Source of the DNA: Calliopum simillimum
Lineage: Eukaryota > Arthropoda > Insecta > Diptera > Lauxaniidae
Assembly: GCA_951812925.1 (NCBI GenBank)
Contig: OX638372.1
Location: 67,349,407-67,413,406 of the forward strand
Direction: 5' to 3'
Length of the DNA: 64,000 nucleotides
Shown here piece after piece: positions 3,431 to 57,373 of this stretch. The position numbers and the translations under genes were made by a program. Within the stretch, counting starts at the first letter, position 1. Every line of letters starts with the position of its first letter. The notes below the pieces were generated by a model that did no database searches, was not told where the DNA came from, and saw only the letters and a list, made by a program, of their open reading frames with translations.

Positions 3431-3763
3431 TTGGAATACAAAAAATGCTACCAAAGTTCAAGTTGACCCCACCCTTTAGAAGACCCATCATTTGAAAAGA
3501 ACGTTGCGTATTGAAAAAATATGTGGGTATATTAAACATTTTATTTTATTTTAGTAGAAAAATATAAATTAACCCCAAAAACTCTTGAAAAAATTGACGA
3601 AAATTTGGCAAACATTGGAAAAATGCTAGCAATTTGCAAAAATTGATTTTTTAATTGAACTTTTAGTCATATATTTGCAAAGATCGATTTACATATAAAT
3701 CTATCAATGCATTTTTTTAACACATAATTATGACAAATCAAGGAACGGATTAAAAACACGACT

Positions 3764-3810
3764 ATAGTGACATATGTTTCGTCTTTCGCCACAAAGACTC
3801 ATCAGACTAT
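3764..3810 (-). ncRNA. Type I hammerhead ribozyme
   Basis: On the minus strand every conserved core position is present: CTGATGA (3805-3799), stem II GTCTTT/AAAGAC (six pairs, loop 3787-3792), then GAA and A15.1. Stem III is the palindromic octamer ACATATGT, followed by C17, giving a GUC cleavage site (3771-3769). Stem I pairs ACTAT (3768-3764) with ATAGT (3810-3806). The very short stem III resembles that of schistosome satellite and Penelope-associated hammerheads. The predicted activity is self-cleavage of the transcript 3' of C3769. No core mismatch is visible. Confidence 0.88.
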
Positions 3811-3903
3811 TTTTGTTGTAATTATAATTATATTTTTATTTTACTAAATTAATTATAATTGAAAAATTGCAAGTTTGAAAACTTTTTGTGTTTCTTGGTC
3901 TGG

Positions 3904-3970
3904 GCGGGAGTCGAACCAAGGATCTCCAGGTTGGTAGCAGAAGGCGTTACCACCGCACCAGCCTTGCCCG
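3904..3970 (-). ncRNA. tRNA-like module (A and B boxes)
   Basis: The minus strand carries TGGTGCGGTGGTAAC (3960-3946), close to a polymerase III A box, and CCTTGGTTCGACTCC (3921-3907), containing a perfect GGTTCGANTCC B box. Acceptor and anticodon stems are not convincing, so this is a tRNA-derived promoter module, not a tRNA gene. It lies about 95 bases upstream of the ribozyme on the same strand. Confidence 0.7.
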
Positions 3971-4965
3971 GCTGCGAAGCCGACTTTTGCCAGTTTTGCT
4001 TGTGTGTTAATACGTATTGATATATCATAATTGTTGTTGTTTGATATATCATAATTGTTGTTTGTGTTATTTATTTTTAATCCGTTCCTTGATTTGTCAT
4101 AATTATGTGTTAAAAAAATGCATTGATAGATTTATATGTAAATCGATCTTTGCAAATATATGACTAAAAGTTCAATTAAAAAATCAATTTGCAAAAAATG
4201 TTAAAAAAGTCGAAAAATATTGAGAAAGTTAAAAAATTTTAACAAGGTTCATCGTAAAGAAGACTTAAACATTGCTCGAAAACCTGGATCAGCAAGAAAA
4301 AAAAGGTCCAACAAATATTGGTAAGGCAAAAGATTTCGAACAACTCCTTCGAAGAGCTCTTTTGTGAGCAGAACCAAAGCTAATGCTGGTCGTCTACAAT
4401 TTCAGATCGTAATGCGGTAAAGAATAAAGAAGCAAAAAAGCGGGTTAAAAAATTGAGGTCTAATTTTATGAAAAAAACTACGTGCTGTGTGATGGATGAT
4501 GAAACCTATGTTCTGGCAGACTTTTTACAACTTCCGGGTCAAGATTTTTTTGTGGCTGATGGACGAGGTAATATTCAGGAACAATATTGGATAATAAAGC
4601 AAGCAAAATTCCCTAAAAAGTTTCTTGTGTGGCAAGCCATTTGCAGTTGTGGCAAAAGAAGCCAAGCATTTGTGACATCAGGAACGATAAATACAGAAAT
4701 GTATATTGAGGAGTGTTTTCAAAAACGGCTTTTGCCTTTTCTACATATTTCTGGTCCAATTTAGCATAATGCCACTATAGAAAAAAGGCCCTTGAGTGGT
4801 ATGAAAATAATAATGTTAATTTTGTACCACGGGAAGCAAGCTCAGCCAACTGTCCAGAACTCTGGCATGTGGAGAAATATTGAGCGCTCGTGAAAAGAAA
4901 ATTAAAGAACACAAGAAAGTTATCCCAGGACATGTCTGACTTCAAGCGTAAATGGGCCGGCTCCT

Positions 4966-6072
4966 CCAAAAGGTAGGTACATTCATAAATTCCGATTAAT
5001 ATTCCAATATTTTAATGTTTAATGAATTTCTATAATATATTAATAAATTCACATATTTTTAATAATTTTAAAATTTAACGTTTTAAATTTTATTTAGCTT
5101 TAAACTTGTATAAGTTTTTTTCGACACACTCTTCAAAGTCTGTTTTTGAACTTGATTATTTGGCATCTTATTGGTATAAAAATAACAATTCGTTCTTGAC
5201 GTGCATACTTTACTATTTCAATGAAAAAAGGTCATATCTTAAGAAACTCATATTGGCTTGAATTCCCATTTTTAAATGCCATAAATTAACATACCAACTT
5301 CCTTAAGACATGTGTTGTTAGCTTCTTGGCATGCCTCCGCATTATGGCATTATAATATCACTTTCAAGAGAATATAAGCCTTTTAGGAAAAATTTTAAAT
5401 CAGTTAAACTGACAAAGTTGATGAAACGAAGCGTTATAATGTTGGCGGGTAATGCGTATATTCGTATCCGTACCTTAATCTTATGCTCATCTCAAGCAGA
5501 AATACGCGCAATATAAAGAGGAAATTTATGCTGAACTTTGACTTTTCACTGAACCTCCTTTAGTCGTTTATGTGTATCTGCTAAAGGTAGTGTCAAGTAG
5601 CTTAACTCCAAAAAGCAGATATATTTTACACAGCTGATACGTTGTAAAGGATTCAACTTCAGACAACAGCAGTTGCAGAATCTACGAGTACACGAATAAT
5701 AATCATTTATGACAATGTAAGCAGTGATGTGCACATTACTTAGTATTTTTCTATTTACATAAAGACACACAAACATGTAATACATATTTGAGCCCAGCGA
5801 GAAAACATGTTTATATTAAAAATATCCTTCAATTCATTCATTGTAACACTTTTCTATGAAAAAACATTCAACTCTTCAGCTAGGCACATTTCCAAAGTTT
5901 AGCTATCAGTTCGAGCCTATGTGTTCATCACCTCAGGTCTAGGCCTTTACTAATTAAGTAGTTTGGAAAAAATAATAGATCACGCAGGATGGAGAAAAAG
6001 AATAGTTTTGACAAAGAACTGCGCACAGCAGAAGGTAAAAGAATGACTTGTAATAGATTGAGATGCCTGTTG
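4966..6072. other. AT-rich stretch, nothing supported
   Basis: No gene, TIR or tandem repeat seen. It may include the 3' end of the Tc1-like remnant, but no terminal repeat was recognised. Confidence 0.4.
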
Positions 6073-6202
6073 CCCGATCAAAAAAAGTATATCAAAAATA
6101 TATCAAAATTATATCCAAAATTTGTCAGTGACATACAAGATTTTGATAAAAAAAGGATATCACAGTGATATACGGAATGTAACGCTTTTTGTATATCACC
6201 AT

Positions 6203-6276
6203 GATATCAAAAAAAGATATCAAAATGATATCAAAAAAAGATATCAAAATGATATCAAAAAATGATATCAAAATGA
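6203..6276. repeat. 24-bp minisatellite, unexpanded left-arm counterpart (about 3 units)
   Basis: Mirror of the array in the right arm: GATATCAAAAAAAGATATCA-type units, about three copies. Comparison with the other arm shows that the array length changed on one side only. Confidence 0.75.
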
Positions 6277-7931
6277 TATACAAAAATTGTATATCAATGA
6301 TATACAAAATTTATATATCAATGATATACAAAATTTGTATATCATTTTAATATCCATTTCTGATACAAAATTGACATAACCAAATTTTGCAATATTGTAT
6401 ATATGATCGTCGGCAACAAGTTTTTAGAAATTGCCCGCATGCAGCAAATGAATAAAATACCGGTTTTTTTAACTCAATTATATGTTTGTGCTTTTTCACT
6501 AATTTCATGAGAAAATTCACTTACTAAAATTAACTGTGCGTCCGCTTTCCATAGCTTTTGTTTTCCCAACCACAGGCTTACAACAACTGAAGGGAGTGTC
6601 GGTTTTTTTGCACTCAATTATATTTGTGTGCTTTTCACTAATTTAAGTAGAAAATTCACTTCTTTTACACTAAAATTGACTCCGCGTTTGTCTTCTAAAG
6701 TTATCTTTCCATAAAATCCTCAAACGAAAACGTCAATTTTGACATATCAGCAGCTGATAAATTTTTGATATCATTTTGATATACATTTCTGATACAAAAT
6801 TGATATCAGCGGCTGATAAATTTTTGATATCATTTTGATATACATTTCTGATACAAAATTGACATGTCATTCAATGATATCAAAAATATATCAAAATGAT
6901 ATACAAAAAAAGGATATCAGCCGCTGACAAATTTTTGATATCATTTTGATATACATTTCTGATACAAAATTGACATGTCATTCAATGATATCAAAAATAT
7001 ATCAAAATGATATACAAAAAATGGATATCAGCGGCTGATACATTTTTGATATCATTTTGATATACATTTCTGATACAATGACAAGAACTTGACAAGTTTT
7101 TCCCGATCAAAAAAACTTGTCAAGTTCTTGTCATTGTATCAGAAATGTATATCAAAATGATATCAAAAATGTATCAGCCGCTGATATCCATTTTTTGTAT
7201 ATCATTTTGATATATTTTTGATATCATTGAATGACATGTCAATTTTGTATCAGAAATGTATATCAAAATGATATCAAAAATTTGTCAGCGGCTGATATCC
7301 ATTTTTTGTATATCATTTTGATATATTTTTGATATCATTGAATGACATGTCAATTTTGTATCAGAAATGTATATCAAAATGATATCAAAAATTTATCAGC
7401 CGCTGATATCAATTTTGTATCAGAAATGTATATCAAAATGATATCAAAAATTTATCAGCCGTTGATATCAATTTTGTATCAGAAATGTATATCAAAATGA
7501 TATCAAAAATTTATCAGCTGCTGATATGTCAAATTTTACGTTTTCGTTTGTGAATTTTATTTAAAGATAATTATAGAAGACGAACGCGCAGCCAATTGTA
7601 GTGAATAAGCTAATTTTCTAATGAAATTAGTGAAAAGCACAAAAATATAATTGAGTGCAAAAGAACCGACACTCCATTCAGTTGCTGCATGTGGCCTGTG
7701 GTTGGGAAAACTAAAAGTATGGAAAACGGACGAGCAGCCAATTTTAGTAAGAAGTGAGTTTTGCCATGAAATTAGTGAAAAAGCATATGAAAAATATAAT
7801 TGATTACAAAAAAAAACTAGTTGACGACGATTAACCACAATATTGTAAAATTTGGCCATAATCTGCGTCACTTTAGTTACGGACCCAAAATTGGTTGTCA
7901 TTTTTGTATCAGAAATGTACAAAAATTGTAT

Positions 7932-8274
7932 ATCACTTTGATATCATTTTTTGATATCATTTTGATATCTTTTTTTGATATCATTTTGATATCTTTTTTT
8001 GATATCATTTTGATATCTTTTTTTGATATCATTTTGATATCTTTTTTTGATATCATTTTGATATCATTTTTTGATATCATTTTGATATCTTTTTTTGATA
8101 TCATTTTGATATCTTTTTTTGATATCATTTTGATATCTTTTTTTGATATCATTTTGATATCTTTTTTTGATATCATTTTGATATCTTTTTTTGATATCAT
8201 TTTGATATCATTTTTTGATATCATTTTGATATCTTTTTTTGATATCATTTTGATATCTTTTTTTGATATCATGG
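7932..8274. repeat. 24-bp minisatellite, about 14 units
   Basis: Tandem array of a 24-bp unit consisting of GATATCATTTT followed by GATATC and a T-run. A minority variant has an A at the start of the T-run and recurs at irregular positions. Each unit contains two EcoRV-type GATATC palindromes. It creates long open frames on both strands, which are artefacts of the period being divisible by three. Confidence 0.9.
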
Positions 8275-8400
8275 TGATATACAAAAAGCGTTACATTCCG
8301 TATATCACTGTGATATCCTTTTTTTATCAAAAATTTGTATGTCACTGACAAATTTTTGATATCATTTTGATATATTTTTGATATACTTTTTTTGATCGGG

Positions 8401-8839
8401 TTTTGATCGGGTGGTTGATCAGATCTTTATAAAATAGACCTGAACAAATACCGGGTTGTGAAAGAAAGAATTAATTGGGCCATAACTTTATAGTTTAGAA
8501 TTTACACAAATGAGTAAGTAACAATGAAAGAATTTATAATGAATATATGTATATGTAAAAACGGATTTTAATGGTTTTAAAAAAAATGTAAGGGGGGTTT
8601 TTAAAAAAGTTTAAAAAATTTTGGTGAAAATAAATGTTTTCACCAAGCAATATTTTTTGCAAAAAGAACACTTAAAAATGAATTTTTGGAAATATTTAAT
8701 CTATAATATTATAGATCAACATTTTTCTGCATAATCAACTGTTAGCAAAATGTTTGGCAAATACGGTATTCGTGACCTTTGACCTCGAATAACTTGATAC
8801 ACAAAAAACTAAATTGTCTATAGCTTTTCACCACGTCTT
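8401..8839. other. AT-rich stretch, nothing supported
   Basis: A partial repeat of the palindrome end (TTTTGATCGGG) occurs at 8401-8411. Nothing else was recognised. Confidence 0.4.
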
Positions 8840-9312
8840 ACACTGGGAAAAAAATTAGTTCATACTACTTTTTTTCTAGTAAATTTAACTAGAATAAATT
8901 TTACCTTAATGTTTAAGTAAATTCAGAATTTTCGAGTAACTTTACAAAAACAATTTTTTTTTTTTTGAAAAAATTTAAATGATATTTACTTTATAGTTCA
9001 AATTTCAAAAAAAAAAAAAAAAAAAAAAACCAACTAAACTAGGAATTGAACCTAGGACCACCCGTGTGATACATTATTTTTTTACTTAGAAGTACAAACT
9101 TGTTAGACCTCTATGCCACTGAGCTATATGATGAAGAGAAAAAAATTTGTATACTAAAAAAATGTCTCTCCAAACATGCACAAACATTTTATTACGAAAC
9201 CATCAAACAGTTCATAAGTATGTTTATTTATGTCTGAAATTAAGTGCTAATTAATCTAACTTTTTTCCTAATCTAGTGGAGTAGAAGTTATGACATTAAT
9301 TTTTCTCGGTGT
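8840..9312. mobile_element. TIR element with tRNA-like core, family A copy 1
   Basis: The imperfect ends ACACTGGGAAAAA and TTTTTCTCGGTGT are inverted. The internal left part (AATAAATTTTACCTTAATG near 8900) matches the element at 58537-59128 (AATAAATTTCACCTTACTG), so the two are copies of one family. The centre carries a tRNA-like module on the minus strand. No transposase. A target duplication could not be read. Confidence 0.65.
9037..9134 (-). ncRNA. tRNA-like module with strong A and B boxes
   Basis: The minus strand has TAGCTCAGTGG (9127-9117), a canonical A box, and a T-arm with a perfect five-pair stem, CTAGG-TTCAATT-CCTAG (9055-9039), containing the B box. A T-run (complement of 9007-9029) follows immediately and could terminate polymerase III. 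An insertion of about 30 bases separates the D-arm from the anticodon region, so this is not a functional tRNA. The text ATCACACGGG resembles the anticodon arm of tRNA-Val(CAC). Confidence 0.7.
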
Positions 9313-9738
9313 TCGAACGGCACAATAATGAATTCATTGTAATAGAGGTTTTACCCTTATTGAACCACACTTTTGTAGAAAAAACAACTTGATCCACGTG
9401 ATCGTAGCATGAAAAGTACAAAAAAGGTAGAGTTTTTTAATACAGAAATTTCCTGTTGGGTGCTTTTCATGCTTTTGAAATTTTTACAGTAATAATGATA
9501 CCATTTTCCTTGATCTAACAACAAACTAGAGTAGCACAGCACTTGTGTACTGTTTTCGTTGTTATTGTTGCTTCCGCAGCTAGTTCTCGTGGATCTAGCG
9601 CCATGTCCCCGTTACTATTTTGCGACCTTGCTAAAGGGTTTTATTGTCACATCACTCAGCACAGCATCAATGTAAATCTGTTCGTCTTTGTTTTTAAAAT
9701 GAAGAAAGCACATTCACATTGTCCTGCGTAACATCCTA
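9313..9738. other. AT-rich stretch, nothing supported
   Basis: No recognisable gene, repeat or element ends. Confidence 0.4.
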
Positions 9739-10116
9739 TGGGGGAAAAAGCGCTTAAATGGGCTTTCGGAAGTGCTTCTTTTTCAGTCATCAGCGCTTCC
9801 GCTCTTTAATACACATTCTTTCTTTTTAACATTGCATTGGTCCTATGATGAAGCTTAGACTTCGGAAAAAAGTTCTTTTGAAATACAAAAAAAAAAAAAA
9901 AAAACAAAAAAAGATCACAAGCCACCTGTGTTGGAATTCAAACTTAAGACCATCGCAAAGCAATATGTTAATTATGAACATTTTAGACCTCTAGGCCACA
10001 AGCATCTGTAATGTGTGCGTGCAAAATTTGTATATTAAACTGAATTTAATATTTGAATTTAATAAGTTTCTACGGAAACAAGTGCTTTCTTAAGAAGCGC
10101 TTGAAATTTTTCCCCT
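9739..10116. mobile_element. Small TIR element with tRNA-like core
   Basis: Ends are GGGGGAAAAAGCGCTT and, inverted, AAGCGCTTGAAATTTTTCCC. Subterminal GCGCTTCC/GGAAGTGC words add further inverted symmetry. The middle holds a poly-A run (9889-9904) followed by a minus-strand tRNA-like module. No coding capacity. Target duplication not resolved. Confidence 0.55.
9925..10008 (-). ncRNA. tRNA-like module, degenerate
   Basis: The minus strand has TGTGGCCTAGAGG (10000-9988), an A-box-like text also present in the HHR elements as GTGGCCTATAG, and CTTAAGTTTGAATTCC (9948-9933) as a B-box-like arm. A T-rich run follows (complement of 9889-9911). Decayed compared with the neighbouring module. Confidence 0.5.
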
Positions 10117-10734: not shown

Positions 10735-10899
10735 ACAAACTTTAGTTAAGCCTTAACTGGAACTTAAACTCAGTAGCTCTTTGACACACAATTTCATGAA
10801 AAATTTGTATTTATCTGGGAGTTAAAAGTTAACTGAATATTGTGAAATTTAATATACAAATTTTACACAAAAAACGTCAAAAGTTTTCATATACAAATG

Positions 10900-10957
10900 A
10901 GCTAAAGAGTTTGTTATATATTTCTGAGCATTGTGTTTCAGGTTCGAATCTAAGTGT
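10900..10957 (+). ncRNA. tRNA-like module, plus arm
   Basis: GAGCTAAAGAG (10901-) as an A-box-like text and TTTCAGGTTCGAATCTAAG with a B box one base from consensus. Spacing is similar to a short tRNA. Confidence 0.45.
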
Positions 10958-11025
10958 GGATGAAAATTTTTTTTATTAATTTTTAATTAATAGAAATTAA
11001 AAAATTGGAATTGAAAATCACCGAG

Positions 11026-25163: not shown

Positions 25164-26725
25164 CAGTAGCGAACAAAACTCTACGTACGACCCCTTTTTC
25201 TTAATTTTAACAAGATCAGTAGGATATGAAAAAAAAGTAATGATGCAAATCACAAAAATTATAATACTCCAATATTACCTTTTAAAGTTATTCACTTAAA
25301 ACTGAAAAAATGCACTGAGAAAAGTCTACATACGCTTTATTGCTTTCACTCTTTTTGCTTTTTTTGTCAGCTGAAACATTACGGTAAATTACCGTTTGTT
25401 TCATTTTATGTCTTTACTTTCTATTATTATTGGAATTTATTGCACTTTGGCATTTTAAAAAGTGTACGATCGGAAAATGGCTCCACGCAAAGAAATTTCT
25501 GCGGATGTGCGAAAATTAGTTATTAAAATTTGGCGAAATAGCAAAATTATTATGTTTAAGCAAATCGACGGTGCAGACCATATTTCATAACTTTAAAAAA
25601 TCAAGTTCCATCGAGAGTAAGCCGCGCACTGGTCGTCCGAAGAAACTTGACCGTAGAGACGTTTCATTCATTCCCAAAGAAGTGGACCGAAATCCCAAAG
25701 TTCATGCCACTAAGTTGGCCCAGGATATAGCTGACAGATCCAAAATTGTTGTTCACCCACACACAGTAAGAAGGACTTTCATTAATGAAGGATTTCACTG
25801 CAGAACTCCTAGCAAGAAGCCCCTTATAAGCGACAAAAAACGGAAACTTCGCTTGGAGTTCGCAAAAAAGCATATAAATAAGGGAATTGACTAATGAAAA
25901 CGTTTTCTATATACGGATGAGTCCAAATACAATATATTTGGATATGACGGGAAAGCCAAAATTTGGAGTAATCCGAACACTGCTATGGATCCCAAGCACC
26001 TAATGCCGACTGTAAAACATGGTGGTGGCAGTGTTATGGTCTGGGGAGCAGTTGCGGCCTCAGGCGTTGGAAATCTGGTATTTTTTGAAAGCATTATGGA
26101 CCGCTTTCAATATTGGAACACAATTTGAAGCCATCTGTGGAAAAGTTATGCCTTGGAACGAGCTGGATCTTCCAACAAGACAATGATCCTAAGCATACGT
26201 TGCATATATGGAAAGACTGGCTGCTGTATTATGCTCCACGACAGCTGCATCCACCTCCACAAAGCCCGGACTTGAATATAATAGAACACGTTTGGGAAAT
26301 ATTAGAGCGAAAAATCCGAAAGCACGCTATTAGTGGTGCTCCAACTCCAAAAGAGAAGCTGCAAGAGGAGTGGCAGAAAATAACGCCGTAAGAGCTCGAA
26401 AATTTAGTAGCTTTAATGCCCAGACGATTGCAAGTGGTCATCGATGCTGGTGGTGACCCATCAAAGTATTAAATTTTGTTATTTATTATTCTTTTTTCAT
26501 ATTATTTCTCATTTTTTAAATTCGTACGTACACTTTTATCAGAGAATTTTTTAAGTTTTTTGTGAATAACTTTAAAAGTTAATATTAAAGATGTATATTA
26601 TTTTGTTATTTTTCATATAATTATAAAATTTAAATCAAACCTGCATCATTACTTTTTTTCCAAATGCATTATTACCTGGTAAATTTAAGAAAAAGGGGTC
26701 GTACGTAGAGTTTTGTCTGCCAATG
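25164..26725 (+). mobile_element. Nearly full-length Tc1-family element
   Basis: 1562 bp. TIRs: CAGTAGCGAACAAAACTCTA at the left (after TA) and, inverted, TAGAGTTTTGTCTGCCAATG at the right. The inner parts (CTACGTACGACCCCTTTTTC) agree closely. Length and ends fit a complete Tc1 element. The right outermost bases and the right TA have mutated. Confidence 0.85.
25477..26472 (+). pseudogene. Tc1 transposase (DDE), inactivated
   Basis: Tc1 transposase cuts at the TIRs and integrates at TA. The start is MAPRKEISADVRKLVIKIW and the end GGDPSKY. The paired DNA-binding region shows TGRPKKLDRRD, then HPHTVRR and the basic FAKKHINKG. The three catalytic acidic residues are visible in YTDESKYNIFGYDG (first D), FQQDNDPKHT (second D) and PPQSPDLNIIEHVW (E, 34 residues downstream), so it is of the DD34E class. 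ATG to TAA spans 996 bp, close to the usual length. It is broken by a frameshift with a small loss around codons 22-35 and by stops near 25892 and 26127. It therefore cannot make transposase, although damage is light compared with the other Tc1 relics here. Confidence 0.85.
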
Positions 26726-32379: not shown

Positions 32380-34600
32380 CATTGCAGTCTGAGAAAAAAA
32401 TCTCGAGAATGTTCAAACGCTTTCTGTGAGTGTATTTATAGGTTTTAAAAGGATTTCGCAAAGTTGATATTTTAATTTCTTTTCTTTTTTTTTTTACTTT
32501 GGCGGCCATTTTAGTGCAAAAAAGGTCCTCTTAACATACCTTTTGATAACACTAGTTTACAGCCAAAATTCCCAGCGAATGCCGTTACTCATTTTATATG
32601 GAAAATGGGCTGCTGATTCCGAAAATTGAATTTTTTTTTTTTATTTCGTGTCGTTTTCGAGATATCGGTCATTTTCGGTTTTTGGACCAAAAAAAAAAGA
32701 TAGTTCCATTAAAATACAAATATCTCAAGAACCAATGTTTGTATTTAAACAACATATTAAAGGTAATTAAATTACCTACAAATGATATCCACACCACTTT
32801 TTGGTTGGTTCGTTAGTTTCGATGAAATAAACTGATTTCTAAAAAAAAAAATATTTTTTTCGACGTAACTTTTTTATAATATTTTATTTTTTTGTATCAT
32901 AGACTATATATTTGTGAAGAAAATAAGATATCATTTAAGAAAATCGATGGAAAAATGCAAAAGTTGTATACAATTCATTGATAAGTTACCAAAATGCGTT
33001 TTTCCCTATTTTTCCGTTTTTTTGTAATAAACTGTTCGAAAATTTGAAACTTTTTGTAAAAGAAATTAGAAAATCCAAAAAATTCTTAAAGAAGGCATTA
33101 AAAGGAAATACCCGTGCCTCGCCGTTTTTCCCTAGCACGTCAGATTTTTTTTTAATCGATTTTTGAAGTTTTTTAATCCACTGTACATGAAAAAACAGAA
33201 ATAACGCATTCTTGTGTTAAATCGATGAATTTAACTATACGATCCTTACATCTGAGGTGTATTATGTGTTCAGTAAACTTATGTAGGATAGGTACTGCGA
33301 GGAATATTTTTGTAGAAAATTTTAACCCTCTAAAACCCTCACATGTGGGTCATTTTGACCCCCACATGAAGGTCATTTTGACCTACATGTGGGGGTTTGA
33401 GAGGGTTAAAATTGTCTAGAAAAATATTTCGCGTAGTATCCTGCATAAGTTTGCTGAAGACATGATACACCTCAGATGTAAGGATCATATAGTTAAATTC
33501 ATCGATTTAACACAAGAATACGTTATTTCTGTTTTTTCATGTACAGTGGATTAAAAAACTTCAAAAATCGATTAAAAAAAAATCTGACGTGCTAGGGAAA
33601 AACGGCGAGGCACGGGTGTTTCCTTTTAATGCCTTCTTTAAGAATTTTTTGGATTTTCTAATTTCTTTTACAAAAAGTTTCAAATTTTCGAACAGTTTAT
33701 TACAAAAAAACGGAAAAATAGGGAAAAACGCATTTTGGTAACTTATCAATGAATTGTATACAACTTTTGCATTTTTCCATCGATTTTCTTAAAGAGTATT
33801 TTATTTGCCTAAAAAATTTATAGACTATGATATAAAAATACAAAATCATTTTTAAAATTTTTTTTTCTTGTAAAAATCTGCAGTTGATTTAGACATTTTT
33901 GTAATTTTTTCGGAAAAATATACTCTTTTTTTCAGAAATCAATTTATTTCATCGAAACTAACAAACCAGCCAAAAAGTGATGTGAGTATCATTTGTAGGT
34001 AATTTAATTACCTTTAATATGACATATTATTTGTTTGAATACAAACATTGGTTCTTGAGATATTTGTATTTAAGTGGAACTATCTTTTTTTTTTGGTCCA
34101 AAAACCGAAAATGACCGATATCTCGAAAACGACACGAAATAAAAAAAAAAAAATGCGATTTTCGGAATCAGCAGCCCATTTTCCATATAAAATGAGTAAC
34201 GGCATTCGCTGGGAAAAAAAATTTTAATCATTTGTAAACTAGTGTAATTTTCCTTGTAATTCTCTTTAAATTTCCTTTAATTCGGTGACACATATGTCAT
34301 ACCAATTTTTTAATTGATGTCAGAAAAAAATACTTTTCAAGTACAATCCGTTTGAAGGCTACAAATGTTCCTCCGAATCAAAGAAAATCAAAGAAGAATT
34401 CCAAGGAAGATTATAAAAGGGTATGTTAATGGATTTTTTGATCCTAAAATGGCCACCAAATTCAAAAAATAAGAAAAAAAAAGAAAATATCAACTTTTAA
34501 GGCTCAGAACTTTGCGAAATCCTTTTTAACCCCTATAAACCAAATACACTCTCAGAAAGTTCATACAATTAGCAAAAACTTTTTTATAAAATGTTTTCTC
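32380..34600. repeat. Giant palindrome with an FB1 copy at its axis
   Basis: Arms mirror each other about an axis near 33364. AAAATGGGCTGCTGATTCCG (32605) is matched inverted by CGGAATCAGCAGCCCATTTT (34162), and TTTCGAGATATCGGTCATTT (32653) by AAATGACCGATATCTCGAAA (34110). GGATTTCGCAAAGTT (32451) is matched near 34515. Identical 62-codon open frames occur on opposite strands at 32978-33166 and 33561-33749, showing locally perfect arms. The inner 33031-33696 part is FB1. The outer sequence is related to text at about 49905-50155. Either a foldback with FB1 at its centre or a tail-to-tail inverted duplication. Confidence 0.75.
33031..33696. mobile_element. Foldback family FB1, compact copy
   Basis: Ends ACTGTTCGAA and TTCGAACAGT, flanked by TAA and TTA. 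Arms carry the FB1 phrases (ACCCGTGCCTCGCCG, TTAAATCGATGAATTTAACT, CATCTGAGGTGTA) and meet at a centre of nested hairpins, CACATGTGGGTCATTTTGAC and CATGAAGGTCATTTTGACCT. The long central region of the complete copy is missing. Confidence 0.7.
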
Positions 34601-39503: not shown

Positions 39504-40396
39504 TTGGGTGTACAACTTAAAAACCGTAATTTTTTAGCGAAATTTGATGCTTTATTGTGGAAAAATGTAAGAATATATTTTATTCAAAGTATTGTCCATT
39601 GGAAGCTACAACATTTTCCCATCTTTCAGGCAATTTATGAATTCCATCCCAAAAAAATTGCGCCGGCTTGGCGGCCAAAAATGAATCTATCCAATTTTCG
39701 ATATCTTGAACTTAAGTGAAGCGTATTCCTGATAGGGCATTCTGCATCGATCGGAACAAATAGTAGTCTGATGGTGCAAGGTCTGGGCTATAAAGCGGGT
39801 GAGGCAAAATTTCCCATCCGTTGTTTTCCGTTGTTTTCCAGGTAATTTTTGACTGGGGCAGCAATATGTGGCCGAGCGTTGTCATGATGAAAAATTATTG
39901 CTTCGTGTCTGGTCGCATTTTCCGGGCGTTTTTTGATGATGCCACGCTTCAAACGTATTAATTGTGTTCGATAGAGGTAACCTGTGAGCATTACAGAGCA
40001 TTACCTTGGCACCATGGATATTTGTCTTTGGCTGGGAAGGTCCTGGTTGTCCGGGCTTCATATATGAATGTTTGCGTTTCGGGTTGTAGTAATGGATCCA
40101 TTTTTCATCCCCAGTCACGATCCGATGCAAAAATGACTTTTGGCAGCAGTTTTCTTTGCAAAAAAATGACCCAACAGAACCTCCCGCAAATGCTGTCTTT
40201 TTCTCCAATTTTCGAAGTTATTCATCGTGAAAAATAATAATGATGCACACAAGATAAAATTGTTTTGTTGACTGATTTTGACAGCTGTCAAATGTACCTT
40301 CAAAATTACATATATATACATAAAGTTCGAGCTTTCACGATATTTTTTAGTACGGACATCCACTGTCAAATTCCGGTTTTTAAGTTGTACACCCAA
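39504..40396 (-). mobile_element. mariner element, internally deleted
   Basis: 893 bp between TA dinucleotides (39502-39503, 40397-40398). TIRs TTGGGTGTACAACTTAAAAA and its inverse are perfect over about 23 bases. Intact mariners are about 1.3 kb, so roughly a third is missing, mainly the N-terminal DNA-binding part. Confidence 0.9.
39580..40237 (-). pseudogene. mariner transposase remnant
   Basis: Mariner transposase (DD34D class) catalyses TA-targeted cut-and-paste. The minus strand encodes, in broken frames, FLHRIVTGDEKWIHYYNPKR with the first catalytic D in TGDEKW, then PNIHGAKVMLC-type text, YRTQLIRLKR and FHHDNARPHIA with the second D. Further on, CTTGCACCATCAGACTACTA-type DNA (about 39764-39783 reversed) encodes LAPSDYYLFR with the third D. 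A deletion joins VMLC to the NTINTFEAW region, the helix-turn-helix domain is largely missing, and frameshifts occur. Inactive. Confidence 0.85.
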
Positions 40397-46910: not shown

Positions 46911-46916
46911 AAGAGA

Positions 46917-47316: not shown

Positions 47317-47656
47317 AATTACCCTGCAAACCAAACCTTACGACTTTGTCTTTCGAAATTTCGTTACGCATTCGTAACTATTTCGTAACGTTTCGTCGTA
47401 ATAATTTTTTTCAATTTTTCTTTCGATATTTCGTTACGATTTCTTAACTATTTCGTAAAGATTTTTCATATCAATTTTTCTTTCGACTTGTCGGAACAAA
47501 GTCGGAACTCTTCCGACTTTTCTTTACGAATTCGTAACTATTTCGTTAAGATTTATCTAAACAATATTTAAACACGATAATTTTATATTGAACTAATTAA
47601 ACAGTCATTTTTGCAATTCTTCAACAACAGACGAAAGCAAGTGTTAACATGGAAAT

Positions 47657-47738
47657 TGATTACATATGTTTCGGCTACTTCCACATACATATTTATATAT
47701 TTTTCATATATAAACATGTATATAGCCTCATCAGATCA
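47657..47738 (-). ncRNA. Hammerhead ribozyme, left-arm copy
   Basis: Mirror image of 48229-48310: on the minus strand CTGATGA (47734-47728), stem II GGCTA/TAGCC, GAAA, stem III ACATATGT and a GUA cleavage site (47663-47661), stem I TGAT/ATCA. All core positions are intact. Confidence 0.8.
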
Positions 47739-47752
47739 GTTTTAGTTAAATC

Positions 47753-47838
47753 TTGCCAGAAACCGTACTCGAACTCGTGACTCCGGTTTTCTAATGAAAG
47801 AGAACGCGGTGCTTAAGCGATTGTGCTATAGGCCACGA
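47753..47838 (-). ncRNA. tRNA-like module, left-arm copy
   Basis: Exact inverted counterpart of 48129-48214 with the same A- and B-box texts. Confidence 0.6.
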
Positions 47839-48128
47839 GTAAACTCTCTGAGCAGGATCGCCATTATGCATAACTCATAAGGCTCACTAGCGCCGTCTGT
47901 TGTGAAAAATTGCCAAATTGTTAGTTGGTAACACACTCTGGTTTTGAGACATGCTACGCTAGCTACAATTAAAACCTACAAGGGCGGATTTGATTTAATT
48001 GTAGCTAGCGTAGCATGTCTCAAAACCAGAGTGTGTTACCAACTAACAATTTGGCAATTTTTCACAACAGACGGCGCTAGTGAGCCTTATGAGTTATGCA
48101 TAATGGCGATCCTGCTCAGAGAGTTTAC

Positions 48129-48214
48129 TCGTGGCCTATAGCACAATCGCTTAAGCACCGCGTTCTCTTTCATTAGAAAACCGGAGTCACGAGTTCGAGT
48201 ACGGTTTCTGGCAA
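48129..48214 (+). ncRNA. tRNA-like module upstream of the ribozyme
   Basis: CGTGGCCTATAGCACAATCG as an A-box-like region and CACGAGTTCGAGTACGG as a B-box-like arm (GTTCGA present, last positions off consensus). Ends 14 bases before the ribozyme. Related A-box text occurs at 9988-10000. Confidence 0.6.
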
Positions 48215-48228
48215 GATTTAACTAAAAC

Positions 48229-48310
48229 TGATCTGATGAGGCTATATACATGTTTATATATGAAAAATATATAAATATGTATGTGGAAGTAGCCGAAACA
48301 TATGTAATCA
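48229..48310 (+). ncRNA. Type I hammerhead ribozyme with extended stem II
   Basis: CTGATGA (48233-48239), then stem II GGCTA/TAGCC (48240-48244, 48290-48294) extended by AT-rich pairing of ATACATGTTTATATAT with TATATAAATATGTAT. Then GAA and A15.1 (48295-48298), stem III ACATATGT (48298-48305), A17 giving a GUA cleavage site (after 48306), and stem I ATCA (48307-48310) with TGAT (48229-48232). Stem III is identical to that of the ribozyme at 3764-3810. Confidence 0.85.
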
Positions 48311-49429
48311 ATTTCCATGTTAACACTTGCTTTCGTCTGTTGTTGAAGAATTGCAAAAATGACTGTTTAATTAGTTCAATATAAAATTATCATACTTCAA
48401 TTTAGAAAGAAGCGCGTTGGTATTTTCATTAGTACTATACAAGCAATAAAAAAAAAACAGTCAATAAACTAACTTCAATATTTAAACACTTTCTTTCTTT
48501 TTTCCATTTTGTTTGAAAAAATTTTTACGTCAATATTCAATCATATGATTAATAAAATATTTATTTCACAGACAAAATAACAGCATTTTGTTGTTATTAA
48601 ATACCGTGAAATATGTTATGTATGTATGATGGGAACTTTACAAGGATACGTACATGTCTTTAGAAAACACATATGCACACTTATATATTACATAAATTAA
48701 ACTGAAATAAAAAAAAAAAAAATTGGAAGGACAAGACACGAAGTTACGATTTTCTTCCGAAAATTCGTAACGATTTCGTAAAGACTCAGCGTAACGAATT
48801 CGTAAAGACACGGCGTTACGAATTCGTAAAGAAAAAGCGTTACGAAGTCGTGTCAACCCTCTCATACAAAATTCGTAAAGATTTCGTAAAGAATTCGGTA
48901 TCGAAATCGGAAAAGTTTGCCGACTCGTCGTAACAATTTCGTTACGAAATCGGAACGTTTGGTTTGCTGGGTAATTTGAGTAGTGGGCAAGAGAGTTGGC
49001 TGATATCCTGGACAATTGTTTTTCAAAATATTTAACCAAAACTTCCCGGAATGAAAGTTTTTTTGGACTTTTGACCAGGATATTTGGATTTTGCCGCACT
49101 GTGCGACCGTTTTGTACACAATTTTGAATTCATTTTACTAGACGACGCAACCTACATCAAAGCTAACTTTAACAGCTTTCAGGTCAACTTTTTTACACCG
49201 AAAAGAAGAAAAGCGATGTTGCGCCATATTTAAAGCAAAAAGAAGTGGACAAGTTTGCAAAAAATATTTGTTTTTGTAAGCAATTCGTAAATACTGTTTG
49301 AAGAGCTCAGTACCTGTCACAACTGGTAGAATTAACCACCAAATTTATATGAAGAGTGCTAAGAGAAACGTCTGCTGCATATGATACGCGTTCACGAAAA
49401 CCTTGTGTTATTTTGAACAGATTTGGCGA

Positions 49430-50156: not shown

Positions 50157-51033
50157 AGACAGAAAGCCAGCGTTTGGCTGACCCTCCTTATAGTATCAAA
50201 GCTGAATTTTTTTATGGGTGTTCTTCCAATAGTAGGTATGAACTTTTGTTCTAATGAAATCCTGAGAGGTGGTGCGAAAGGTCGAGAAAACAGTTTTTTG
50301 AAAATATCTCGCTAACGGTTATATCTACAAAAAAATTTAGTTCAATTTTGTAGCACAGCAAAATTCATATCGAAAAATAGTGCAAATTGTTTTCGTATGA
50401 TCTATAGTTTAAAAGATATGGTCCATTGGACTTTCCGATCCAACATATAAAATTCATGTTTTTTTTTTTTCTTTTAGTCAGTTTATTTTGTAGTTTCAAA
50501 GTATGTTCTGAAATTCGGGACCGCTTTCACTATCATACAAAAAGTTATACCGGCACAAAGGTCAAGAAAATTAGTATCTCGCTAACGCTTATTTCTACAA
50601 AAAAATAGTACCGCACAATTTTGTAGCTCAGAAAATTTCATATCGAAAAGTGGTGTGAATTGTTTTCGTACGACCAACAGTCAAGGAGATATCCTATTTT
50701 AAGGTATTTTCCGCACACAAATGTTCATAGTAATAAGAATGTTGATTTTGAAATTACTATAACTACGCCTACGTCATAGTATCATGGCTGAATTTTTTTG
50801 TGGGTAGAAAATAATTTCCACCATTTTTCGATATGAAATTTGCTGAGCTTTGTGGAACTAAATTTTTTTTGTAGATATAACCGTTAGCGAGATATTTCCA
50901 GATATCTCACCAAGGCACCACGTCTCAGGATTTCACTAGAACAAAAGTTCATACCTACTATTGGAAGAACACTCACAAAAAAATTCAGCCTTGATACTAT
51001 AAGGAGGGTCAGCCAAGAGCTGGCTCTTAGTCT
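50157..51033. mobile_element. TIR element with GCCAGC-GGCTGACCCTCC ends
   Basis: AGACAGAAAGCCAGCGTTTG, GGCTGACCCTCCTTATAGTA, TTCTTCCAATAGTAGGTATG and TATCTCGCTAACGGTTATAT at the left are repeated inverted at the right (about 50870-51033). TIRs are about 180 bp with small differences. The middle contains a direct duplication of the TATCTCGCTAACG block (50306 and 50576). No coding. Target duplication not found. Confidence 0.7.
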
Positions 51034-51748
51034 ACATGTGATACTATCAAATAGGATTTTGCTTATATTTTTTTCCTAAATTAAAAATATTTTTTGAGCT
51101 TACTTCATGTTAATTTAAATGATTTTGGCATAATTTAAAGCCGCATATCTGAAAAACAACAAAGGTACGAGTTAGTGGTCTTTTTTGATGTTTAAAATCA
51201 TATTCCAAATAGTTTCTATAATATTAATATAAAACTTTATCAAATTCGTAAATTATAAATCTAAAAATTACGATTCGTTTCATTCATGTATTACTCATAC
51301 GCCATGTTGCACATTTAAAATTTATATTAAAATCTATCCTTCAAACGTGTATCTCATACGCAATTAGGGTGCGTGAATTATAATCAAAAGTTTTGAAAAT
51401 ATGAAAATAATTAATTTACATTTTGAACAATATAAAATTTTACGAATCCATTAATTGGTACTAATTATGTGTTTTAATTAAAATTTGAATTTTATGCCAT
51501 GCAACTATTGATAACGTTAGTGGTGAGCTTATACTGAAACGCTGATGTTTGAATCGTCATAAAGTGGTTTCAATGGTAAATTACGTTTAATGCACATCAG
51601 CATGATTCACTAATTGAACACGTTTAGGCCAAGTAATACGCATATTGAATGGTATTTTTTGCAATGTTTTATTGGTGTTATCTAAATTAGACTTTTTAAT
51701 TGAAAATATTTTTTTCATGATTCATATTTATCAAACATGTATGTACAA
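51034..51748. other. AT-rich stretch, nothing supported
   Basis: No gene or repeat recognised. The last 8 bases (51741-51748) are the target duplication of the next element. Confidence 0.45.
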
Positions 51749-53286
51749 TAGAGGTGTTTTAAGAATGTATGGAGATCCTTAGTAACAACATTTTGATACT
51801 TGACACCCCTCAATATTGTGAGGTTGGAAAAAAAAATGAGTTTGCAAAAAAAAAATTTTGGGGGTGGGGTGAGGGTAAAGGTTGGCGCATCGAGGTCAAA
51901 GATGAGAGAAAAAGAGAAAAAATTTACATACAGCTTTACAAATGCTTAGGGGTCACATCTAGAGGGGTCAAATGTATGACCGACCCACATTATTTTTTCT
52001 TTCCCAACATTTTTACTAAGCATACTTACCCCCTATCTCTAATCCCTAAGGGGCTCCCATACAAAATTGACATTTTTTGGAAATCCACCCCCACTACTCC
52101 CTGGGTGCCCCTAGAAGGGTCAAATGTATGACTGGCCCCTAATATTTTTTCCTACCCAACATGTTTTCACAACATACTTAACCTCTATCTCTGACTCTTT
52201 AGGGGACTCCCATACAAAATAGATGAAAAATATGGAAAGGAAATCTTCAAATAGGTCCATAACTGCCCAGAAGTCACTCCTAGAGGAGTCAAATATATAA
52301 CCGACCCCCAATAGTCCCCTCCAAATTTTTTTCTCAGCATATTTGCCCCCTATTTCCAATCCTTAAGGGGGCTCCCATACAAAGTTACTGTTTTTATATA
52401 AAATTCTCCCACTGCTCTAACTGGCACACGGGTACTCCTAGAAGGGTCAAATGTATGACTGACCCCCTTTATTTTTTTGCGACCTATATTTTTTTCCCTC
52501 ATACTTACCCCCTATTTTCAACCCTGAAAGGGGCTGCCATACAATTTTTTTTTTATATAAATTTTCCCAGAAATAATGGGGGTCGGTCATACAATTGACC
52601 CTTCTAGAGGAACCCATGGTCCAGTTAGGGCAGTGGGGGCAGTTTTTAAAAAAAACGTAACTTTGTATGGGTGCCCCCTTAAGGATTGGAAATAGGGGGT
52701 AGGTAAGCTGTCAAACTTTGGAGGGGGGGTAATAGGGGTCGGCCATATATTTGACTCCTCTAGGAGAGACTCCTGGGCAGTTATGGGTCTATTTGACGAT
52801 TTCCTTTCCATATTTTTTATATCTATGACGTCGGTTTTGTATGGGAGCCCCCTAAAGAGCTAGAGATAGAGGGTAAGTAAGGTGGGGAAAAATGTTGGGG
52901 AGGAAAAAATATTAGGGGCCGGTCATACATTTGACCCTTCTAAGGGCACCCTGGGAGTGGTGGGGGTCGATTTCCTGAAAATGTCAATTTTGTATGGAAG
53001 CCCCCTTAGGGGTTAGAGATAGGGGGTAAGTATGCTTGGTAAAAATGTTGGGGGAGAAAAAATAATGTGGGTCGGTTATACATTTGACCCCTCTAGAGGT
53101 GGGCCCTCTTGCAGGGCTGTAAGTAAATTGTTTCTCCTTTTCTCTCATCTTTGACTTCGATGCGCCAACCCTTACCCTCACCCCACCCCCAAAATTTTTT
53201 TTTCAAACTCATTTTTTTTTCCAACCTCACAAAATTGAGGGGTGTCAAGTATCAAAATCCAAAATTCGTGCACTAAAACATCCCTA
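51749..53286. mobile_element. hAT-type foldback element with tandem blocks in both arms
   Basis: 1538 bp flanked by a perfect 8-bp duplication ATGTACAA (51741-51748, 53287-53294). Ends are TAGAGGTGTTTTA and inverted TAAAACATCCCTA. Arms of about 760 bp meet near 52530. Each arm holds about four tandem blocks of 150-170 bp built on GGGTCAAATGTATGAC, CATACTTACCCCCTATCTCT and GGGGCTCCCATACAAA. These recur at about 51967, 52113, 52287 and 52443, and inverted on the right. No coding: the open frames are repeat translations. Confidence 0.88.
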
Positions 53287-53294
53287 ATGTACAA

Positions 53295-54699
53295 TGCATT
53301 AATTTTGTTTATTACTTAAGCAAAATGTAACTAAAATTTTTTTTAAAAAATATCATTAATATAGATTAAAAATTTTTCTCTTCAAGGTTGCCCAGGGTTA
53401 GAAGTCGTTGACATAAACCTTGAGTCCTAAAATATCACAAAACAATAGATTAAGAAAATTATTGAAAGAAACTGTAAAACAGCCAAAATTTTAGTGTGGA
53501 CAAGTTTTCCTTCATACAATTGACAATTTCAAATCTCTCAAATATCAACTTCAAAACAATTTTTTATTTTTTTATTTTATTTTTATTTTTAAATAAATAC
53601 ACTTTATTTTAAGCTAAGTGGGAAATAACTAAATATTTTTTTTCTTTTTTGTAGACCAAAATGAACAAATGTTGTAGACTTCCGAAAGACATTTTCATTT
53701 GTGTATCGCATTTAATGTGTAAACAAGACGGAATCATCGAATACGCCTGTTTTACGTATGACGAAAGTAATAATCTTTTCGATCATATGATGATGACTGT
53801 TATCATGATGAGCTCAAGAAAATAAAATTGTTTATTTTTGTATGAAATCTTTTTGAATACCTTTTTGTTTTTATTATTTTCCCCATACCAACAAGTAGAT
53901 ATTTTAATTTTGCTGACGTTTGCATAAATGCGTACATTTATTTTTATAGCTAACATTGCAGAATTTAAAAAGAAAAATGTTGATTTAATCAATATTGCGC
54001 ATAAATAATTTTCAATCCTCAAATCCGCAGTTTTGTAAGTTTTTGTAAAATTTGATAATTCTTAAAATCTATTCTTTGTATTCTCATATATCCTAAGGCC
54101 AGGGCCAAAAAAAAACATCTCCATGCAAAGCCATCCTTTGCAATGATTTTTATCTCGATGCGCGTCCCTCCCGATTTTAAAGCTTGCTAGGAAACTGTAT
54201 AGTTTTTGTGTGAGCCAAATTGTTCGGGTGGAAAGAATATGACCAATCGTCAATCTAAGAAAGTTTCATCAATCATGAGTCTAAAATCAATATTGAGCCC
54301 TCAGTTATTAACGCGTAGATTTTTCTATGACATTTTTATATTAAAAAAGGGGATTATCAAAAATATCCAAAAATCCAAAGATCCAAAAAAAACATCCAAA
54401 AATGAAAATCCAAATAAAAACTAATAAAAAATTTTAAATTACAATAGTTTTTATTAAAGTATTCAAATTAAAAAGTAGGTAAAATAAAACTAAAAACTAA
54501 AGTGAAAGAATAATTTAACTGATTGGAAATTTGTTTATTGAATATTTTTGTTATTGGAGATTTTATTTTGGATTTTTTTTCACTGGATTTTATTTTTATT
54601 TGATATTTTTTTTATTTTTTGAATGTTATTGTTTGGATATTTTTGAGTGGAATCAAAAAAATAACTTCTTTAAAAACAAAATTGAATGATATTGACTTT
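53295..54699. other. AT-rich stretch with a weak inverted region
   Basis: ATCCAAAA-type words (54352-54420) are mirrored by TTTTGGAT-type words (54560-54655), with GGATTATCAAAAATATCC opposite GGATATTTTTGAGTGGAATC. This may be a small degenerate foldback. No gene. Confidence 0.35.
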
Positions 54700-55497
54700 A
54701 GCTTTGTTTGATGATTGCTCTAGAGTACTCTAGAGCAAACTAGAGCAGTCAAAAGTGTTCGATGAAAGTTTTCCTGCTCTAGGTTGCTCTATTCTACTGT
54801 GAAAAGTGTTCGATGAGTCTGCCCCAAACTGCTCTGTTTGCTCTTTTCTGCTCTAGATTTTTATCAAGAAAGGTTATGATGAACATTCGTTTTTCAAAAC
54901 ACTTTAGTAAAAAAAAAATAAAAAAATTTTTTTTTGGAAAATTGATTTTTAAGATTTTTCAAAACATGGCCGTCATTTCGTCAATTCTTATTTTCATGAT
55001 TCATATAGGAAATATTGGTTTTTTTGGTATAGCTTCTATTTTCTAAGCAATGGAAGTTATATCCTTGTACTTTAAAATTTTTTTTTTTGCCACCTATTGG
55101 GTGTAAATGAAAGCATAAAATAAAGTTAAAAAAATTGTCACGTGACTTTGTAGAAAAAATGTTCCTGTGGCTCCCGCAGCCATTTAGCGCAAAACAAGTC
55201 TTCTGTAAAATGTTTGTATTTTATTCACCTTTTTGTAAAAAAAAAATAAAAAAATAAAAAGAATATTGATAATTTTATATTGAACTAATTAAACAGTCAT
55301 TTTTGCAATTTTTCAACAACAGACGAAAGCAAGTGTTAACATGGAAATTGATTACATATGTTTAATTGTAGCTAGCGTAGCATGTCTCAAAACCAGAGTG
55401 TGTTACCAACTAACAATTTGGCAATTTTTCACAACAGACGGCGCTAGTGAGCCTTATGAGTTATGCATAATGGCGATCCTGCTCAGAGAGTTTACTC

Positions 55498-55580
55498 GTG
55501 GCCTATAGCACAATCGCTTAAGCACCGCGTTCTCTTTCATTAGAAAACCGGAGTCACGGGTTCGAGTACGGTTTCTGGCA
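55498..55580 (+). ncRNA. tRNA-like module, copy 3
   Basis: Same as 48129-48214 but with GGGTTCGAGTAC, which is closer to the B-box consensus than in copy 2. Confidence 0.6.
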
Positions 55581-55595
55581 AGATTTAACTAAAAC

Positions 55596-56640
55596 TGATC
55601 TGATGAGGCTATATACATGTTTATACAGTCGACGTCCAATAATACGAATTATATAATGTCAGCCCTATTCGTAAAATCGAAAAATTCGTATTATCGCAAC
55701 GAAATGTTGGTCCTTTTTTCTTCTATATTGAGACATATTGTCGGTTTAGAGACAAAATTCACTAACCCGAATATTTGTTTTGAGAGAAAAACATCAGTTT
55801 ACGAAAAAATTTTATGAAAAATAGGAAATTTATGAATTTTTTTTCTGAGTGATATGATATGGAAACGGAAAACACAATTAGGGTATTTCTTAAAACGTGT
55901 AAAAGCCTCGAAAGCTCGTAAAACTGACAAAGTTCGTATAAATTTTAGCAACTATTGCGAGTTTACGTGATTTTCGAGGCATTTGCACATTTTAAAGAAT
56001 ACCCTCAATGTTTTGATAAAAACAAAAAAATATTTGATGGACAAAGTATGGGAATTGAGCTAAACATACTACACTGTTAATCTCAATTTCCAAAAAAAAT
56101 ATTTAATGAGTTTTGCCACTAAAAGAAGAAATTTAAAGTAAAACACGCCAATTGTACCAGTTAAAAAAGCATGATTTGACCGATTTGGCTAAAATTTGGC
56201 ATTGTTGTATTACCGATACGCGAGGATTTTGCTCTGGTATTTCTTGTCAATAAACAGGGTCGCGAAATTGATTTTGGTGGTTTTTGTAAATTTCTATGAA
56301 AGACTTCTTTTCAAAAACTCAAACTTTTTTTTTTTCAGATTTTACGAAAAAAAGCTTTTCAAAACGTTCTAAAAATTCTGAAAAATTTCCCACGTATTCT
56401 TTCATGCATTCTAAGCATTTAATGCTTAGCAAAAGAGCAGAGCCTACTAAGGAAAAATTCTCATTCGTATTATCGCACCGTAAAATTTACCGCTGTTCGT
56501 ATTATAGAATCACGTGTAGAAGAAATATTGCATTCGTATCATTGGACATTCGTAATACGGAGCATTCGTATTGCTGGACGTCGACTGTATATGAAAATAT
56601 ATAAATATGTATGTGGAAGTAGCCGAAACATATGTAATCA
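55596..56640 (+). ncRNA. Hammerhead ribozyme interrupted in stem II
   Basis: TGAT-CTGATGAG at 55596-55607 and TAGCC-GAAA-CATATGTA-ATCA at 56620-56640 are the two halves of the ribozyme. The pogo/Tigger element (55626-56587) is inserted in the stem II extension. The core residues are unchanged. Confidence 0.75.
55626..56587. mobile_element. Non-autonomous pogo/Tigger-like element
   Basis: 962 bp between TA dinucleotides (55624-55625, 56588-56589). TIRs CAGTCGACGTCCAATAATAC and the inverse of CAGTCGACGTCCAGCAATAC. CAGTCGACNTCC-type ends with TA duplications are typical of Tigger/pogo elements. ATTCGTATTATCGCA words recur near both ends (55680, 56464). No transposase motif seen. Confidence 0.85.
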
Positions 56641-57373
56641 ATTTCCATGTTAACACTTGCTTTCGTCTGTTGTTGAAAAATTGCAAAAATGACTGTTTAA
56701 TTAGTTCAATATAAAATTATCATACTTCAATTTAGAAAAAGCGCGTTGGTACTTTCATTAGTACCATACAAGCAATAAAAAACAGTCAATAAACTAACTT
56801 CATAAAAAGAATATTATTTTGAGATAATCAACTTTTAAGATTTTTCAAAAAATGGCCGCCATTTTGTAAATTTTCAAAACTTTCCAAATTTAAAAATGAA
56901 AAATAAATTAACGTTTAAAATTCTACAAGAATCCGAAAACAAAAATTTAAAAAATTTATTTTTGACAAAATGGCGGGACTTAGAAAAAAAAATTGCATCG
57001 ATTTTTCGCAAAAACACCACTTGGACACTCTGAAGTTTCATGCTCATAACTTGGAAAAAAAAAATTTTTTCGCAAAACTAATAATGAGAGGTCTCCATGC
57101 TAAGCACTTAGAACATCTCTGTGAATTTTTATAAAAATCAGAGAACCCAACTGCAAATTTCGAAAAAAGTGAGATGATCACAGCCAAGAGTAGGTTGGAG
57201 CAGCAAATTTTCATAAGAAAAATAAAAACAATACAAATATTTTTAAAATTTATCGTCAATTTTGATATTTGTATTTTAATTTTAACGTAAAAATATGTAA
57301 ACATTTCTAATTTTTGCTGATTTTCTCAAAGTTGCTCTAGCCTGCTCTAAAAGTAATATGACATCTTTCAAAA

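Follow-up and report, generated by a model that had tools for sequence, protein, structure and literature searches.

Hammerhead-bearing, head-to-head insertions in Calliopum simillimum as probable products of Penelope-type mobilisation

How do short non-coding elements that combine a tRNA-like part with a hammerhead ribozyme come to be inserted in the genome of a lauxaniid fly? The question is raised by a 64,000-nucleotide stretch of Calliopum simillimum DNA (the window; positions 67349407-67413406 of contig OX638372.1, here called C5, in a 690-Mb assembly, GCA_951812925.1). An initial annotation had placed three retroelement-like insertions there, at 3643-4185, 47576-48476 and 55268-56801, here named E1, E2 and E3, each with a tRNA-like module, a hammerhead and a target duplication of 12-14 bp. 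Reading of the sequence bore out all three insertions with their duplications, the tRNA-like part consisting of promoter-type boxes. It also revealed what had been overlooked, namely that each insertion is built head-to-head, its left part being an inverted copy of its own 3' part. We consider it probable that the three belong to two families of retroelements, non-coding and non-autonomous, which operate in the manner of Penelope elements.

A genome search, in which 40 of 1421 candidates were scored for E2 and 40 of 1291 for E1, gave 245 and 165 matches respectively, counts that are lower bounds. Many copies thus exist of two families, E2/E3 and E1, with more than 1000 first-look candidates each. 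In tandem arrays, the E2/E3 unit recurs every 574-578 bp in the order LINK (the segment that joins units, 96 bp), body with tRNA-like boxes (229), hammerhead (84), T module (85) and X extension (about 80-85), and the E1 unit has the same module order with a spacing of about 545 bp. In both families the tRNA-like part and the hammerhead, the co-occurrence of which elsewhere the initial annotation had made a condition of its reading, share one repeating unit. Its picture of SINE-like single units (SINE, short interspersed nuclear element) was not supported, as the majority of the insertions mapped contain several units, in tandem, head-to-head or both, with up to 8 ribozyme modules per mapped locus. 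Typically, an inverted left part is joined head-to-head to a direct right part; left arms range from less than 100 bp to several units, and the junctions vary. Flanks of at least 10 bp are shared on the two sides of 23 of 24 E2-family and 14 of 26 E1-family head-to-head insertions, compared with 4 of 552 and 7 of 650 control pairs taken from different loci. These flanks are AT-rich (85-87%), and in the E2 family their shared length is 9-14 bp. The many copies with shared flanks support the earlier proposal of a retroelement with target-primed reverse transcription and duplications of variable length.

The outer ends were typed, as T or X according to the position in the unit at which the insertion stops, at 41 E2-family and 32 E1-family loci, after removing 1 and 9 duplicates. 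In the E2 family, all 24 head-to-head insertions with both ends typed have one T and one X end. The 27 comparable E1-family rows comprise 23 T/X, 3 T/T and 1 X/X; one T/T row (L076) was discounted, as it consists of two insertions 3.1 kb apart, so that T/X stands at 23 of 26. Under a free 50:50 choice of ends, the binomial probability would be 6e-8 for the E2 family and 4e-5 for the E1 family. A further 4 (E2) and 3 (E1) head-to-head loci have an untypable end, and arrays in one orientation end with 10 X and 3 T (E2) or 1 X and 1 T (E1). The E2 ends are tightly placed, with X at 170-175 (coordinates of T plus X) in all 24 copies and T spread over 80-94, 19 of the 24 lying at 84-88; those of the E1 family are looser (T 120-136, X 167-191). 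The distance from T to X is 85 nt in E2 and about 50-60 in E1.

Units of one insertion resemble each other more than units of different insertions. The mean numbers of differences within and between insertions are 0.99 and 3.13 in the E2 family (90 and 3651 pairs) and 2.3 and 12.2 in the E1 family (52 and 1223 pairs), a contrast reached in each family by 0 of 2000 label shuffles. Comparing inverted with direct units of the same insertion gave 1.44 for E2 (18 pairs) and 3.75 for E1 (8 pairs, including one contributed by the composite L076). In the window itself, the E2 arms run for 395 bp without mismatch and the inverted parts of E1 and E3 for 112 and 96 bp; among the positions covered by both arms of E2 and of E3, a single one distinguishes the two elements, and there the arms of each element agree, with GAAGAATTG in the E2 arms and GAAAAATTG in the E3 arms. 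The two arms would thus derive from one RNA or from RNAs of one source array, or have been homogenised later by gene conversion; a circular RNA is a possible, unproven template. One array, L018, shows two alternating unit types, one bearing a core mutation (GAAA to GATA). Its three mutant units are the only exceptions among the 87 complete E2-family units, 84 of which have an intact ribozyme core.

Much of this anatomy is that of the Penelope/Poseidon clade of Penelope-like elements. Penelope insertions have an inverted pseudo-long terminal repeat (pseudo-LTR) at the 5' end, a 31-bp tail on one inverted pseudo-LTR and duplications of 8-10 bp, and they occur as tandem or partial-tandem units and head-to-head inverted repeats (PMC3846280). 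Minimal hammerheads accompany these inverted pseudo-LTRs (PMC7761336, PMC11167929, PMC3846280), and hammerheads are in print both here and in animal retrozymes (PMC7229834), as the initial annotation had said. A purified protein of Poseidon cleaves both DNA strands and extends them, prefers AT-rich DNA and initiates at two adjacent internal RNA sites, while ribozyme mutants were without effect on insertion in vitro (PMC11167929). The insertions described here share the inverted pseudo-LTR at the 5' end, the tail at one outer end (absent from the window's own E1, which is T/T), a minimal hammerhead of type I close to the 3' end, AT-rich duplications of variable length and partial tandems. They differ in their tRNA-like boxes, in a T/X pairing that is sharper than the published "optional" tail, and in lacking an open reading frame (ORF) and any sequence link to a Penelope ORF in the three families sampled. 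They are not autonomous Penelope elements, since neither E1 nor E2 contains a stop-to-stop frame of at least 100 amino acids and the unit measures 545-578 bp.

In the course of events that we infer, E1 and E2 RNAs would borrow a Penelope-type enzyme. The reverse transcriptase/GIY-YIG endonuclease encoded by a Penelope-like element would bind a multi-unit transcript and cut AT-rich DNA in a staggered fashion. Reverse transcription would then be primed by each of the two broken 3' ends, starting at the internal site T for one of them and at X for the other, and the two complementary DNAs would extend toward each other before joining head-to-head. The resulting insertion would have its left arm inverted and its right arm direct, would end in T on one side and in X on the other, and would be flanked by a duplication mostly of 10-14 bp. 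The hammerheads, acting as dimers, may cleave the multimeric RNA into units. In the genome, 51 GIY-YIG matches above the cut-off were listed, two of them in frames of 841 amino acids, and Pfam confirms the domain in one of these two. A hammerhead-like motif lies downstream of the Penelope ORF in all three families sampled (L093, L094, L095, L096). The best fold among these motifs is that of the 841-amino-acid family, in which the similarity of two copies ends at the same point, about 115 nt beyond the motif.

Several observations weigh against a Penelope-type origin. Nothing similar to the T or X sequence was found in the Penelope elements sampled (3 families, 4 stretches, from the 51 GIY-YIG matches), and in two of these families the hammerhead-like motif came from a loose pattern and gives no clean hammerhead fold. 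The T-to-X distance exceeds the published 31-bp tail. Two E1-family insertions, the window's own E1 and L092, are T/T, and L069 is X/X without a clear duplication; in L063 and L088, counted within the 23 T/X, the X end is set apart by 538 and 400 bp, separations that we read as later insertions. Moreover, the end cut-offs were chosen after the maps were seen, and the loci analysed are the 40 scored per family, not a random sample of the candidates.

A metazoan-retrozyme route offers an alternative for the template step alone and could operate together with a Penelope enzyme. Here ribozyme-released unit RNAs would be ligated to circles, which the reverse transcriptase would go round repeatedly, leaving a tandem array in one insertion. 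We entertain this tentatively, as a possibility short of an even chance: direct and inverted units of one insertion share variants, a mapped locus holds as many as eight ribozyme modules, the alternation in L018 is as expected from a dimeric template, and retrozyme circles are reported from other animals (PMC7229834). The same pattern, however, is expected if a single homogeneous array is transcribed into linear multimeric RNA; the three L018 mutant units were copied despite their core mutation, and the ribozyme mutants that left insertion in vitro unaffected (PMC11167929) argue in the same direction. Non-LTR retrozymes of metazoans consist of tandemly repeated units bearing type I hammerheads (PMC7229834). 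Like them, the present families are non-coding tandem repeats in which each unit has one type I hammerhead, and their duplications exceed 4 bp. The present units are larger than the published 170-400 nt or so, and the available portion of that source does not describe, for retrozymes, a palindromic stem III of the minimal kind, insertions built head-to-head with two fixed ends, or tRNA-like boxes.

An alternative that builds on the SINE-like unit of the initial annotation is a SINE derived from a tRNA, transcribed by RNA polymerase III and moved by a long interspersed nuclear element (LINE), with a tRNA-like head, short transcripts and single insertions, a reading that we find improbable. It can claim that, when pairs of A and B boxes are ranked across the window, E3 and E1 come out on top (17/20), E2 (16) being tied with three other places. 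Nevertheless, ARAGORN and all Rfam tRNA models gave no match in the elements, whose tRNA-likeness is weak and limited to promoter-type boxes. Runs of at least four T, which would stop polymerase III, lie within both family units, one of them inside the E2 X extension. The insertions are mostly multimeric, and their head-to-head copies have two ends of reverse-transcription type, unlike the single target-primed end of a tRNA-derived SINE; start sites at two ends are, to our knowledge, not LINE-like. A precedent does exist in schistosome Sm-alpha, a SINE-like, hammerhead-bearing element similar to a tRNA-Gln-TTG-derived SINE family (PMC2770079). Sm-alpha and Sj-alpha share with the present elements a tRNA-derived part and a hammerhead in a short dispersed element; they differ in being SINE-like, and a head-to-head tandem architecture is undescribed for them in the available portion of that source. 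The suggestion that a tRNA-like head with a hammerhead is not a described class thus fails, Sm-alpha and metazoan retrozymes having come before (PMC2770079, PMC7229834). In the titles and abstract openings surveyed, most subscription papers being outside reach, the full combination seen here is not described.

Ordinary satellite DNA, spread by recombination and with arrays arising from unequal exchange, would account for the tandem arrays and could produce homogeneity within them; since most mapped arrays have target duplications and stop at T or X, we regard it as very improbable. We give still less credence to a fold-back DNA transposon or miniature inverted-repeat transposable element, the inverted ends of which would be true terminal repeats. 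The inverted ends of E1 and E3 do match at 100% identity over 96-112 bp, but across the families the left arms and the junctions vary, the left and right ends are unlike (T versus X), and the length of the shared flanks is variable.

The hammerhead core CTGATGAG..CGAAACATATGTH occurs once in E1, twice in E2 (in each arm) and, split by an insert, in E3; all are minimal type I hammerheads with a six-base palindromic stem III, CATATG. In E1, stem I is ATAGT/ACTAT and stem II GTCTTT/AAAGAC, and a pair of E1 ribozymes co-folds as the expected dimer, with a common stem III and, on each side, 5 bp of stem I and 6 bp of stem II. The same minimum-energy calculation did not return the E2 dimer, because the long stem II of the E2 ribozyme dominates the result. 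This stem accounts for most of the folding z of -4.46 of the E2 ribozyme, while that of E1 alone is no more stable than its shuffles (z = 0.17). The Rfam search, which the initial annotation had proposed, gave no hammerhead match at the gathering threshold: E1 alone matched Hammerhead_3 with 22.7 bits (E = 0.023; gathering score 48.5), and the hammerhead models found no match in E2. Matches of E2 to Rfam miRNA models were rejected as the E2 palindrome itself. A pattern of E1 stem III with a short loop II occurs at 1944 places in the genome (977 + 967), a count that includes copies at contig ends, against 0 for the reversed-pattern control; the matched strings among those listed (25) are E1-like. 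Pattern scans of viral and prokaryote contigs yielded 0, 1 and 3 places.

How far the two families are related outside the ribozyme had been judged in the initial annotation, which took body and tail of E1 to be unlike those of the other two insertions and stressed a common stem III octamer, ACATATGT. The dissimilarity of the E1 and E2 bodies stands, 257 of 500 shuffles reaching the score of their alignment. For the tails, an unanchored 100-nt comparison was indeed not significant, being matched by 610 of 2000 shuffles and 80 of 2850 window segments, whereas the 45 nt leading up to the T ends of E1 and E2, anchored at the end, were equalled or beaten by only 59 of 5000 shuffles and 7 of 18898 window segments. 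The octamer is present, but only its ATAT is shared beyond the ribozyme core, because the other four letters are what we take to be the core itself.

Features of the three insertions in the window, with strand where assigned; E1 as a whole is oriented on the minus strand.
Feature	Positions	Strand	Remark
E1 target duplication AATTTGCAAAAA	left 3631-3642, right 4186-4197		read in sequence, with flank control
E1 3' module T, spanning the 124 nt between ribozyme cleavage site and T end	3645..3768	-	module map
E1 hammerhead, dimer type, palindromic stem III CATATG	3769..3814	-	
E1 tRNA-like promoter boxes	3907..3969	-	B box GGTTCGACTCC 10/10, A box 7/10
E1 5'-end inverted copy of T module	4074..4185	+	112 bp, 100% identity
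E2 target duplication AATATTTAAACAC	left 47563-47575, right 48477-48489		14th base, C, ambiguous
E2 left arm: complete inverted body, hammerhead and T module	47576..47973	-	
E2 junction, 20 bp	47974..47993	-	matches end of LINK
E2 right arm, body with tRNA-like boxes	47994..48222	+	A box 48139, B box 48192-48202
E2 hammerhead	48223..48306	+	GTA cleavage site after 48306
E2 T module, 85 nt	48307..48391	+	stops at T start site
E2 extension, 85 nt	48392..48476	+	stops at X start site (..CTAACTTC)
E3 target duplication ATAAAAAGAATATT	left 55254-55267, right 56802-56815		
E3 left arm: T module and 3' edge of the ribozyme in a short inverted copy	55268..55363	-	
E3 body with tRNA-like boxes and hammerhead 5' half	55361..55625	+	
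DNA transposon, 962 bp, in E3 ribozyme stem II	55626..56587		foreign to the element
E3 hammerhead 3' half, T module and extension to X end	56588..56801	+	

The transposon within E3 has a 13-bp perfect terminal inverted repeat, CAGTCGACGTCCA, and is flanked by TA on both sides. Elsewhere in the window, at 32867-33860 and 6073-8400, lie further long inverted repeats (arms of 424 and 261-358 bp) and 24-bp tandem repeats, in which the hammerhead core pattern was not found. Broken frames of Tc1/mariner-type transposase were seen at 4384-4764, 25520-26388 and 39885-40217; in Pfam, the second is HTH_Tnp_Tc3_2, the third matches below the cut-off and the first is without match.

A variant of the E1 ribozyme with CGAA added in loop II has 148 copies in the genome, 74 per strand (control 0). 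Among the copies listed, 100 of the 148, all 100 sit at five chromosome-scale contig ends, at most 22 kb from the end. All 74 forward copies lie at left ends: 5 on C1 (spacing 406, with a gap), 44 on C3 (398) and 25 on C5 (405 once, then 402). The reverse copies among those listed are 19 at the right end of C3 (spacing 385) and 7 at that of C5 (391). Being on the reverse strand and later in contig order, the remaining 48 would be placed at the right end of C5 or on contigs after it, and the C5 tail, with room for 55.6 repeats, fits 7 + 48. No exact copy was found at C1 right, C2 or C4 among the matches listed, which extend as far as C5. With up to 3 mismatches allowed the copies number 98 + 135, 85 more than the exact ones, the positions given being those of the exact copies listed. 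Spacing is thus end-specific (385-406 bp), and polarity is uniform, with the 5' side of each repeat facing the tip and its 3' side the interior at left and right ends alike, as expected if RNA 3' ends join the chromosome.

Taking contig ends as chromosome ends, we regard these arrays, the likeness of which to E1 is that of the ribozyme, as candidate telomeres. Telomeric repeats of the HeT-A type have their 3' end inward, and the uniform polarity seen here is likewise that of HeT-A/TART in Drosophila. The contig-end arrays also resemble rotifer Terminons/Athena as retroelement-related repeats at chromosome ends. Terminons are of Penelope type, with hammerheads near their 3' ends (PMC6431247); they differ in being coding, up to 40 kb long and attached to G-rich telomeric repeats, compared with a repeat of about 385-406 bp here. 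No work on hammerheads at dipteran telomeres was among the literature matches listed. It is conceivable, and we propose it with reserve, that the chromosome ends consist of tandem hammerhead units of end-specific length, extended by a Penelope-type, telomerase-related reverse transcriptase that copies hammerhead-processed RNA. Dispersed E1 and E2 insertions would then reflect this system at work on internal breaks, with a loss of telomerase assumed.

In conclusion, the near-strict pairing of T and X suggests that separate RNA start sites serve the two broken DNA ends, and it provides a testable insertion rule for Penelope-type enzymes, which are relatives of telomerase. If the terminal hammerhead arrays are indeed telomeres, the fly would have a chromosome end based on self-cleaving RNA, and a direct bridge would connect retrozymes, Penelope elements and the maintenance of chromosome ends.

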